Assembly (NCBI RefSeq): GCF_005155025.1 | Contig: NZ_CP039731.1 | Span: 186,001 to 250,000 of the forward strand | From: Aquitalea aquatilis | GTDB taxonomy: Bacteria; Pseudomonadota; Gammaproteobacteria; Burkholderiales; Chromobacteriaceae | DNA: 64,000 nucleotides | Direction: 5' to 3' | In this document: in pieces, positions 2,811 through 26,394 of the stretch | How positions within the stretch are numbered: position 1 is the first letter of the stretch | Layout: each line of letters starts with the position of its first letter | Position numbers and translations under genes: made by a program | The notes under the pieces: model-generated | What the model saw: the letters and a program-made list of their open reading frames with translations, nothing else | The model's database searches: none | Told to the model about the DNA's origin: nothing

Positions 2811-3851
2811 CTAATCAAGCAGACGGCCCCAGATGCGCAAGCGGCTCACGCCACCGTCAGGGAAGATGTTCAGCCGCACGTGATTGACCGGCCCCAGCGG
2901 GCGGATCTGCTCCCGGTCATAAAAGTGCTGCTTGTCCATGGCGGTTTTCTGCTCGGGCAACAAGCTGTCCCAGAACATGGCCTGGGTCACAATGGACTGA
3001 TCGGTACCCTGCGTCACCAGCGCAGCCTGAATGGACACGCTGTCCGGATAATTACCCTTGAAGTGAGCGGTATCCACCTCGATACGCTCGACAATGGCCA
3101 TCCGCCCCAGTTGGACGATGCACCAGTCGTTACCCGGCTCGCGCCGGCGGCGGGTTTCCCAGCCATCCCCCATATTGATGCCACGACCGGGCATGATCAG
3201 GCGAAAGGGCACGCCGAAATGGGCATCGTTATAGGCAACAATGCGACCGCCATGCTGCAGCGCAGACACTTCATGCAGGGCTGACCGGTCCTTGCCCTCC
3301 CAGTCGCTGGCGGGTTGGCCATACACCCGCAAGCGTGCCACGCCGCCATCCGGATAGATGTGCAGCCGCAGATGCGTCCACACCCGTGCGTCATCAATGG
3401 CAAAAAAGTGATGCGCACTGCTGCCCAACGCTGCTGCCGGCAGGATTTCGGTCCATACCGTGTGCTCATCAGGTGAACCCGCGAGATGACAAGCTTCCAC
3501 CGAAGCAGCCGGCGGGAAATTGCCGGTAAAGTGGCTGGTATCAATATCCAGCCCCTTGATCACACCTGGCAGGCCCAACTGGATGACCGCATGATCATGC
3601 CCGCCATTGCGGCGACGGCGCGTCTCCCAGCCATCCATCCATTTGCCGTGATCGTCAAACTTGCCCACCACGAATACCGGTGACGATGACTGCAGCATGC
3701 GCTCTGCCGGCGCAAACCACTCATCCGAGCAGGACAGCACACAAGCGCCGAAATCAGGATCCGCCAGATTGGCATGGCGACGGGCAAATTCCGGTAACTC
3801 AACCGGCGACGCAGGTAAAACAGTCGCCGTGGGATGCAATGCAATATTCAT
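2811..3851 (-). CDS. alc: Allantoicase
   Basis: A 346-residue allantoicase that hydrolyses allantoate to ureidoglycolate and urea. Two tandem beta-sandwich repeats are visible: the motif DGWETRRRR occurs twice (near residues 73 and 230), each followed by a valine- or isoleucine-rich QLG strand and an aspartate-His-Phe stretch. The C-terminal half ends with [19 protein letters not shown]. An ATG at 3851 with a nearby GGAGAGA supports the start. It is separated from the upstream lysE-like gene by only 57 bp, so it probably belongs to the same minus-strand transcript as puuE-uraD. Confidence 0.94.
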
Positions 3852-23702: not shown

Positions 23703-23730
23703 CAAACGCCCCGGCATGCCGGGGCGTTTG
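23703..23730. terminator. Perfect 28-bp palindromic terminator (cysB / SDR gene)
   Basis: The 14-bp arms from CAAACGCCCCGGCA to TGCCGGGGCGTTTG form a perfect palindrome between convergent cysB (+) and the SDR gene (-). T runs are short (TTTG), so efficiency is uncertain. Confidence 0.65.
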
Positions 23731-23749: not shown

Positions 23750-24490
23750 TTACAGCGTCAGGCCACCGGTCACTTCGATCGCCGCGCCATTGATGTAGCT
23801 GGCTTCGTCGGATGCCAGGAAGGCATAGACATTGGCGATTTCGGCCGGATCGGCCATGCGCTTCATCGGTACCTTGTCTTCCATGGCCTGGATCACTTTT
23901 TCCGGCATGGATTTCAGGATAGGCGTAGCCACAAAGCCCGGGCATACGGCGTTGGCACGGATACCCTTCTTGCCCAATTCCTTGGCCCAGGTCTTGACGA
24001 AGCCGATCACGCCGAACTTGGTGGCGGCGTAGTTGGTCTGACCAAAGTTGCCATACACACCGACTACCGAAGATGCGTTCAGGATGACGCCGCTACCCTG
24101 CTCCACCATGGTATCCACCACGGCACGGGCACAGTTGTATACGCCCTTCAGGTTGATGTCGATCACCTTGTCGAACTGATCGTCGGTCATCTTGATCAGC
24201 TGGGCGTCCATCACGATGCCCGCATTGTTCACCAGTACGTCGATGCGGCCAAAGCGTGCTTTCAGATCACCAACCATATCGGCGATCTGCGCCTTGTCCG
24301 TCACGTTGACCTGGTAGCCGACAGCCTCCCCGCCCAGAGCCTTCAGTTCTTCCACCACCGCATTGACAACGTCAAGGTTCAGGTCACAGACGGCAACGAT
24401 AGCGCCTTCCTTGACGAACTTTTCCGCAGTAGCCTTGCCGATGCCGCTGGCACCGCCAGTGATGATGGAGACTTTCCCTTTCAATCGCAT
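23750..24490 (-). CDS. SDR-family 3-oxoacyl-ACP / acetoacetyl-CoA reductase (FabG/PhaB-like)
   Basis: A 246-residue classical short-chain dehydrogenase. The cofactor loop is ITGGASGIGKA, NNAGIV follows near residue 88, and the catalytic triad is Ser in NASSVVG with Tyr and Lys in TNYAATKFG. GGLTL ends the protein. It resembles FabG but stands alone, away from a fab cluster, so it may be an acetoacetyl-CoA reductase for polyhydroxyalkanoate. The neighbouring inverted repeat contains TGCA-rich elements, but that link is speculative. Start ATG at 24490 has GGAAGAACC just upstream. Confidence 0.85.
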   Translation of the reverse strand: MRLKGKVSIITGGASGIGKATAEKFVKEGAIVAVCDLNLDVVNAVVEELKALGGEAVGYQVNVTDKAQIADMVGDLKARFGRIDVLVNNAGIVMDAQLIKMTDDQFDKVIDINLKGVYNCARAVVDTMVEQGSGVILNASSVVGVYGNFGQTNYAATKFGVIGFVKTWAKELGKKGIRANAVCPGFVATPILKSMPEKVIQAMEDKVPMKRMADPAEIANVYAFLASDEASYINGAAIEVTGGLTL

Positions 24491-24533
24491 GGTTCTTCCT
24501 TCATTAACTTGAGGTTGCAGGCAACCCGATCAC

Positions 24534-24563
24534 GGGTCGACTTTCGGGCTCCACCATCGACCC
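24534..24563. repeat. Inverted repeat in the SDR gene leader
   Basis: GGGTCGA (24534-24540) and TCGACCC (24557-24563) are 7-bp inverted arms separated by 16 bases, 44-73 bp upstream of the SDR start codon. It may be a leader stem-loop or an operator; no T run is present. Confidence 0.4.
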
Positions 24564-24620
24564 ATTCGAGATCAGGTTCCTGTTCTTGTCTTGTAATTAT
24601 TATGTGGGCACTACGTAAAA

Positions 24621-24694
24621 ACGGGAGCATCGTGCGCTGTCGTTATTGCAGCGCAACACAATGTCGCACTGCAATATAGCGCACCTGCTCCCGT
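24621..24694. repeat. Long bulged inverted repeat (likely ybiT terminator and/or operator)
   Basis: Three nested paired blocks make a 74-base imperfect hairpin: ACGGGAGCA/TGCTCCCGT (24621-24629 with 24686-24694), GTGCGCT/AGCGCAC (24632-24638 with 24678-24684) and ATTGCAG/CTGCAAT (24645-24651 with 24669-24675). Read on the minus strand the last arm runs into T5 (24620-24616), so it could terminate ybiT 69 bp after its stop codon. It is far longer than a normal terminator and lies 131 bp upstream of the SDR gene, so a regulatory role is also possible. Confidence 0.6.
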
Positions 24695-24762
24695 CGGTAA
24701 AGCAATCGCTCTAGCCGGTCTGCCCCGATGACAAAGGCAAGGCCGGCAGCGTGTCTTCCGGC

Positions 24763-26394
24763 TTACTCCAGGCCCTTGCTGGCCAGATAATCCTCGTAAT
24801 TGCCGGTGTAGTAGTCATAGCCACCCTTGCCATCCAGTTCCAGCACATGAGTTGCCAGCGAGCTGACGAACTGACGGTCGTGCGACACGAAAATCAGTGT
24901 TCCCTTGTACTTTTCCAGCGCCATGTTCAGCGCCTCGATGGATTCCATATCCATGTGGTTGGTCGGTTCGTCCATGATCATCACGTTCGGCTTTTGCAGC
25001 AGCAGCTTGCCGTACAACATGCGACCCTTCTCACCACCGGACAGTACGCGCACCGGCTTGGTCACCTCGTCGCCACCAAACAACAGCCGCCCCAGCGTGC
25101 CACGGATAACCTGCTCGTCATCGCCTTCCTGGCCCCACTCGCGCATCCATTCGGTCAGCGTCATGTCGCTGTCGAACTCGGCTTCGTGGTCCTGGGCAAA
25201 ATAGCCAATCTGCGCCTTTTCCGCCCACTTGATATTGCCGTAGTCGGCAGTCAGGCCTTCGGCGAGACGTGCTTCAAAGGCGCCAGCGAGCAACTTGACC
25301 AGCGAGGTCTTACCGGCACCGTTCGGGCCGATCACCGCCAGGCGGGCACCAGCCTCCAGGATGAAACTCATATCCTTGAACAGCACTTTGTTGTCGTAGG
25401 CCTTGTTCAGGCTTTCCACTTCTACTGCCTGACGATGCAGCTTGAAGCGGTCGTCGGTTTCAAAGCGGATAAACGGGCTCTGGCGGCTGGAGGGCTTCAC
25501 ATCCACCATCTCGGACTTCAGCTTGTCCACCTGCTTCAGTCGGGAAGTAGCCTGCCGCGCCTTGGACTTGTTGGCCGAGAAACGCGCCACGAACTCCTGC
25601 AGCTCCTGGATACGTTCCTTGGCCTTGCTGTTGGACGACAACTGGCGTTCGCGCGCCTGGGTCGAGGCGATCATGTAATCGTCATAGTTACCCGGATAAA
25701 TGCGAATGGTGTTGTAGTCCAGATCCGCCATATGAGTACACACGGAGTTCAGGAAGTGACGGTCATGCGAAATGATGATCATGGTGGAATTGCGCTCGTT
25801 CAGCACATTTTCCAGCCAGCGAATGGTGTTGATGTCCAGGTTGTTGGTCGGTTCGTCCAGCAACAGGATGTCCGGGTTGGAGAACAGCGCCTGTGCCAGC
25901 AAAACACGCAGCTTCCAGCCCGGTGCCACTTCGCTCATCGGGCCAAAATGCTGTTCGACCGGAATGCCCACACCCATCAACAGCTCGCCAGCGCGAGCCT
26001 CGGCGGTATAGCCATCGTACTCGGCGAACTTGGCTTCCAGTTCAGCCGCGTGCATGTAGTCATCTTCAGTGGCTTCGAGATTGGCATAAATGGCGTCGCG
26101 TTCGCTCATTGCCGACCACATTTCAGTGTGGCCCATCAGCACGACATCAATGACGCGCTGCTCTTCGTAGCCAAACTGATCCTGACGCAGCTTACCCAGG
26201 CGCAGACCGTTTTCAATGGCTACTTCGCCACTGGTCTGCTCCAGGTCACCGCCCAGAATTTTCATGAATGTCGATTTGCCGGAACCGTTGGCACCAATCA
26301 GGCCATAACGGTTGCCTTCGCCAAACTTGACGGAAACCTTTTCAAACAAAGGCTTCACGCCAAACTGCATGGTAATGTTGCTAGTGGTAATCAC
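24763..26394 (-). CDS. ybiT: ABC-F family ATPase YbiT
   Basis: A 543-residue soluble protein with two ABC ATPase domains and no membrane segments. NBD1 has Walker [10 protein letters not shown] and Walker [16 protein letters not shown]2 has [19 protein letters not shown] and [13 protein letters not shown] basic helical linker lies between them (about 240-310). The NBD1 signature appears as VAPGWKLRV, as in E. coli YbiT. ABC-F factors act on stalled ribosomes; the exact role of YbiT is incompletely known. Confidence 0.93.

Follow-up and report, generated by a model that had tools for sequence, protein, structure and literature searches.

A predicted ybiT terminator hairpin enclosing a conserved promoter match and PhaR-type sites in Aquitalea aquatilis and related bacteria

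Introduction

In an intrinsic (rho-independent) terminator a GC-rich stem, directly followed by a run of T, lies 3′ of a gene on the same strand. One terminator can be common to neighbouring transcription units whose signals overlap: excerpts of PMC6045580, which cites Grundstrom and Jaurin 1982, describe the E. coli ampC attenuator as being also the terminator of the frd operon, with the promoter placed in the last frd gene, before the terminator, which also attenuates ampC. Operators of PhaR have been described at phaP1 of Ralstonia eutropha (PMC12849132) and at phaP1 and phaP4 of Bradyrhizobium (PMC6201568); in excerpts of both papers they are sites of the TGCRNYGCA type, located close to the −35 box or to the start of a phasin promoter. 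Titration of PhaR by the storage polymer is likewise described for a phasin gene (PMC12849132, in excerpt).

The locus considered here lies in a window (the whole stretch of Aquitalea aquatilis DNA analysed) of 64,000 nucleotides. As in an intrinsic terminator, a GC-rich stem 3′ of a gene on the same strand, which we call ybiT after the first-pass annotation, leads directly into a T run; unlike the usual form, the hairpin has a length of 74 bases, and the putative promoter spacer of the next gene supplies its 5′ arm. The ampC attenuator/frd terminator is the nearest precedent, but here the promoter match lies inside the hairpin, and RNA begun there would be without the 5′ arm. The PhaR-type sites differ from those of the phasin operators in that they stand at a FabG-type reductase gene and are folded into the putative terminator. 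The parts are known and their overlap is new; among open-licence papers using such phrases, reports of promoter–terminator or Term-seq overlap contained no arrangement that we recognised as this one, which is weak evidence of absence.

We put at roughly 0.7 the probability that the locus is, as comparison of related sequences suggests, a single element: a ybiT terminator built round the promoter of the reductase gene and its PhaR-type sites, from which RNA born at that promoter is spared. Its features, in the order in which minus-strand transcription would meet them, are as follows.

24763..26394, minus strand: ybiT-type ABC-F gene (NF011646, ABC-F family ATPase, 967.8 bits against a cut-off of 762)
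24696..24701, minus strand: −35 box TTTACC of the putative reductase gene promoter (promoter scan; orthologous spacers)
24679..24695, minus strand: 17-nt promoter spacer and putative terminator 5′ arm (fold; 24686–24695 pairs with the arm adjoining the T run)
24621..24694, minus strand: whole hairpin, proposed ybiT terminator (RNA fold, lowest energy among U-tailed hairpin calls in the window)
24673..24678, minus strand: −10 box TATATT, within the hairpin (promoter scan; orthologous loci)
24665..24673, minus strand: PhaR-like site TGCAGTGCG (TGCRNYGCA with one mismatch), which overlaps both the −10 box and the predicted start
24665..24667, minus strand: predicted transcription start, placed from the −10 box
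24647..24658, plus strand: 12-mer TGCAGCGCAACA (motif search)
24647..24655, either strand: PhaR-like core TGCAGCGCA / TGCGCTGCA, perfect to TGCRNYGCA (motif search)
24617..24621, minus strand: T5 run where the 3′ arm ends (plus-strand AAAAA)
23750..24490, minus strand: FabG-type short-chain reductase gene (NF004198), proposed target of the embedded promoter

Results

The three arms named by the first-pass annotation, ACGGGAGCA/TGCTCCCGT (9 bp), GTGCGCT/AGCGCAC (7 bp) and ATTGCAG/CTGCAAT (7 bp), are all present at 24621–24694, as is the minus-strand T5, at 24617–24621, in which it had them end, and the hairpin is confirmed. In minus-strand RNA the pairing runs to 10 + 7 + 15, the last block being lengthened by G-U pairs and the outermost G-U pair sitting just beyond 24621..24694. 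The minus strand (24704–24611) folds at −51.9 kcal/mol (z −7.96), against −27.86 ± 3.02 for 200 dinucleotide shuffles, none of which (0/200) did equally well; the plus strand folds more weakly (−44.5, z −6.42) and has no T run after the hairpin. Transcription past ybiT would thus yield a stable GC-rich stem-loop with T5 directly after the stem, the form of an intrinsic terminator. When the whole window was scanned loosely, 58 U-tailed hairpins were called, some of them overlapping, and this one is the lowest of them in energy. A simple terminator scan reported just its inner 6-pair piece, and found 4 terminator-like sites in the hairpin region compared with 5.2 expected; a scan of this kind can overlook such an element.

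The hairpin encloses a promoter match, TTTACC-17-TATATT, whose −35 box lies just outside the stem. It has both boxes at a spacing within 16–18 and agrees with the sigma70 consensus at 9/12 positions, the best score for an embedded promoter among the 58 window calls (the next being 8). Within the window alone, such matches are about as frequent as chance predicts (3 against 2.9 expected), and for this reason the best match to TTTACC/TATATT was sought in each of 61 orthologous spacers from 10 genera. TTTACC itself was the best match in 48 loci, and the −10 box was TATATT in 55 and TATAGT in 6; the spacing was 17 in 46 loci and 18 in 15. Scores out of 12 were 12 in 42 loci, 11 in 16 and 10 in 3, although in one locus (L079) the site picked is, by eye, probably not the true one. 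Since a best match is always picked, the identical search was repeated on 1830 shuffled spacers, of which 37 scored 10 and one scored 11. It is therefore conservation among related genomes that argues for a promoter here. The size of the hairpin, which had earlier been remarked as exceeding what a terminator needs, is indeed greater, probably because a conserved promoter, missed at that stage, sits inside it.

The gene downstream had been called FabG/PhaB-like, and the first half of that name holds, narrowly: the product passes NF004198 with 299.2 bits (cut-off 296), scores under the cut-off of the FabG model TIGR01830 (287.8, cut-off 297.75), and fails the acetoacetyl-CoA reductase model TIGR01829 (239.3, cut-off 302.1). 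Membership of the PhaB family is ruled out by score; a gene elsewhere, at 3613580, passes TIGR01829 with 376.3.

Two PhaR consensus sequences are given in excerpts of the literature, the 12-mer TGCRNYGCASMA (PMC6201568) and the 17-mer YTKNTGCRNYGCANMAR (PMC12849132), and the 12-mer used here, TGCRNYGCANMA, is the inner part of the second and a relaxed form of the first. It is matched perfectly at 24647–24658 and with one mismatch at 24662–24673, while the stricter TGCRNYGCASMA, read from the letters, has one mismatch at 24647–24658. The 17-mer has 2 mismatches at 24643–24659, within the rule of 3 mismatches in the excerpts of PMC12849132, a match that is weak by itself given 17 sites (34 strand calls) in the window with 2 or fewer mismatches. 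Comparison of loci is more telling. A TGCRNYGCA core lies 0–45 nt from the −10 box in 60/61 orthologous loci, against a background in the same loci of about 0.009 per such window and 8/1830 shuffled spacers holding a core there, and TGCRNYGCANMA occurs near the promoter in 58/61. The likeness of the TGCA dyads to PhaR operators, put forward in the first-pass annotation, thus gains in weight, and PhaR itself is encoded in the A. aquatilis genome (PF07879, 106.2 bits) and in 61/61 genomes of the family.

The dyads might instead be the operator of a regulator other than PhaR, which we think unlikely. That idea draws on the distribution of cores in A. aquatilis, where none that is perfect was found around the starts of phaB and phaC, nor any near the starts of two weaker members (L042, L043) of its four phasin-family genes; two perfect cores do stand upstream of the second phasin gene (L041). 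Against it, besides the presence of PhaR throughout the family and the fit to the published consensus sequences (PMC12849132, PMC6201568, in excerpt), the same core occurs at the phasin promoter beside phaR: it was found, mostly after a TACATT-like box, in 24/30 of the phaR–phaP intergenic regions available from 30 of the 61 genomes, the other 6/30 having none. Matches across the whole genome are uninformative by themselves, being more numerous than operators alone could account for (298 strand matches for the 12-mer against 22 for its reversed control; 280 for the 17-mer, allowing one mismatch, against 20). As to position, phbB2 of Bradyrhizobium is presumably a reductase gene. Excerpts of PMC6201568 report some shift of the phbB2 promoter with PhaR, a precedent for PhaR at the promoter of a reductase gene, and we continue to regard the dyads as PhaR-type sites.

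In one locus (L044, around 3472–3611) phaR and the phasin gene are divergent, with an intergenic palindrome of the TTGTGC-NNN-GCA type that recurs in 24/30 family genomes. Among 34 orthologous loci of lower identity (L125–L160, with L131 and L142 set aside because they are from Chromobacteriaceae), 19 have a core within 300 bases upstream, as do 39/680 shuffles of such upstream stretches; four of the 34 have ybiT adjacent, and in these the whole spacer was searched and held no core. Five of the more distant loci, with no adjoining ybiT found (L127, L130, L133, L134, L140), carry, upstream of the reductase gene, the core followed by C or G, A or C, and A, a pattern that suggests the same control in another promoter layout.

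Terminators were compared in the 58/61 loci with ybiT adjacent (L028, L072 and L074, with no neighbouring ybiT found, being left out), using energy cut-offs of −10 kcal/mol for separate upstream terminators and −15 kcal/mol for promoter-spanning hairpins. Thirty spacers had a promoter-spanning U-tailed hairpin only and 26 a separate upstream terminator only; both kinds occurred together in 0, and neither in two (L013, in which the T run is degraded, and L071). In 2320 shuffled spacers, spanning calls were made in 2.5% and upstream calls in 1.9%. L051, which has a strong upstream call, also gave a spanning one before the cut-offs were applied, but at −10.7 kcal/mol this was weak and fell to the energy limit. 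A quick ybiT tree yielded three independent contrasts, the two traits going in opposite directions in two or three of them and in the same direction in none, for which a sign test of exclusivity gives p 0.25–0.5, three contrasts being too few for significance, the loci being related. As far as these spacers can be read, spanning hairpins and separate terminators appear complementary in distribution, and the earlier suggestion that the hairpin ends ybiT transcription fits, in that a U-tailed hairpin is found where no separate ybiT terminator is called.

The register between hairpin and promoter is close to fixed. In 28/30 spanning hairpins the 5′ arm starts 16–17 nt ahead of the −10 box, hence one or two bases past the −35 box where the spacing is 17; in the remaining two, both of genus g2, it starts 7–9 nt after the start of the −10 box. 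Genus g7 (probably Chromobacterium) has a compact 43-nt form in 13/18 spanning loci (for example L057, GGCGGGAGGGCGTGCGC-TATATT-GCGGTGCACAAACTCCCGCT and then the T run) and a 71-nt form in five. Arm sequences vary with pairing largely kept, position −16 being G-C or A-T, and −9 being C-G, T-A or G-C; mismatches in the outer arm fall at the ninth position in 4/10 distinct arm pairs (13/28 loci) and at the first in one.

These data bear on two simpler accounts. According to one, the locus is an operator and promoter for a PhaR-type regulator only, with an outer stem that is symmetrical for DNA binding and has no part in termination. The strong conservation of promoter and core would suit this, as would the broken T run in L013; but the outer arms fall outside the PhaR consensus, lead into a T run and are called just where a separate ybiT terminator is absent, so that we hold this account to be improbable. 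According to the other, the hairpin is an ordinary ybiT terminator and the inner promoter and TGCA sites are chance or unimportant. In its favour are the T5-tailed hairpin downstream of ybiT in the same orientation and a promoter match at chance level within the window alone, yet the promoter match and a TGCRNYGCA core are kept in genomes of the family where a separate terminator exists and no spanning hairpin is called, and we rate it a shade more improbable still. A mobile-repeat remnant, for which size and symmetry might speak, is scarcely credible, and as a mobile repeat the element is ruled out by its copy number: the whole element is single copy in the 4.36-Mb genome and lies in the same place in 10 genomes of the genus. 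The genome search proposed in the first-pass annotation revealed no scattered repeat, the seven other matches all being partial (15–28 bases, E 0.665 or higher); nor is the element absent from close relatives, a spanning U-tailed hairpin being called in 9/10 genomes of the genus, with a broken T run in the tenth (L013). A search of Rfam with window positions 24000–25200 only gave three weak matches, all far under their gathering scores.

Discussion

The reading we prefer, a ybiT terminator built round the reductase gene promoter, would work as follows. RNA reading through from ybiT would carry both arms of the hairpin and undergo intrinsic termination at the T run. The 5′ arm would double as the −35/−10 spacer of a promoter of the sigma70 type that drives the FabG-type reductase gene, and RNA born at this promoter would begin within the hairpin, lack the 5′ arm and so pass the T run; the terminator would in this way spare the promoter inside it. 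The inner dyads would be PhaR-type operators at the −10 box and start, at which PhaR would repress the promoter when there is no storage granule to bind, and from which storage polymer would draw PhaR away, derepressing the promoter. Termination, the start point, PhaR binding and repression are what we infer from the sequence; the hairpin, the conserved promoter match with its sites, and the complementary distribution with separate terminators can be read in it directly. The terminator and the PhaR site of the first-pass annotation both find support, as layers of one element whose embedded promoter it had missed.

If this is right, a regulated promoter can be insulated from the gene upstream with no additional DNA, a little-constrained spacer serving as a terminator arm, and the FabG-type reductase gene joins the likely PhaR regulon of the family. 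We lean, by a slight balance, towards there being a class of promoter-sparing terminators, in which the 5′ arm is supplied by the −35/−10 spacer of the downstream promoter, the 3′ arm and T run by the region transcribed first; such elements would act on read-through RNA only and replace the separate ybiT terminator in the family. Predicted folds of promoter-born RNA differ among loci. In A. aquatilis this RNA is predicted to fold at about −16 kcal/mol into a different shape, without the terminator stem. In L019 a strong hairpin is still possible (−24.9), its stem stopping 7 nt short of the T run, and in L022, of genus g2, a hairpin of −19.5 to −24.4 kcal/mol is kept near a short T run; since promoter-born RNA could still form a hairpin there, sparing would not be clean in g2.

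Other features were seen around the reductase gene. Its 5′ leader (24488–24585, minus strand) holds a conserved element, CAGG ... GGTCGATGGTGGAG ... CGGGTTGCCTG, for which 15 loci chosen for alignability gave 15 predicted pairs, two of them with changes in both partners and several disrupted in part of the rows. The 24000–25200 Rfam search gave no match for it, and a model of the element, run on 13 genomes (150 of 935–2248 candidates scored in each), matched this leader in the 9 of them that belong to the genus, with a single weak hit elsewhere (E 0.013). A short upstream peptide in the leader was considered and, on inspection by eye, rejected, since small indels separate close relatives in that stretch. 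Beyond the reductase gene, between it and a convergent plus-strand gene (LysR-type by eye), a symmetric GC-rich hairpin at 23707–23726, CGCCCCGGCATGCCGGGGCG, is perhaps a terminator shared by the two.
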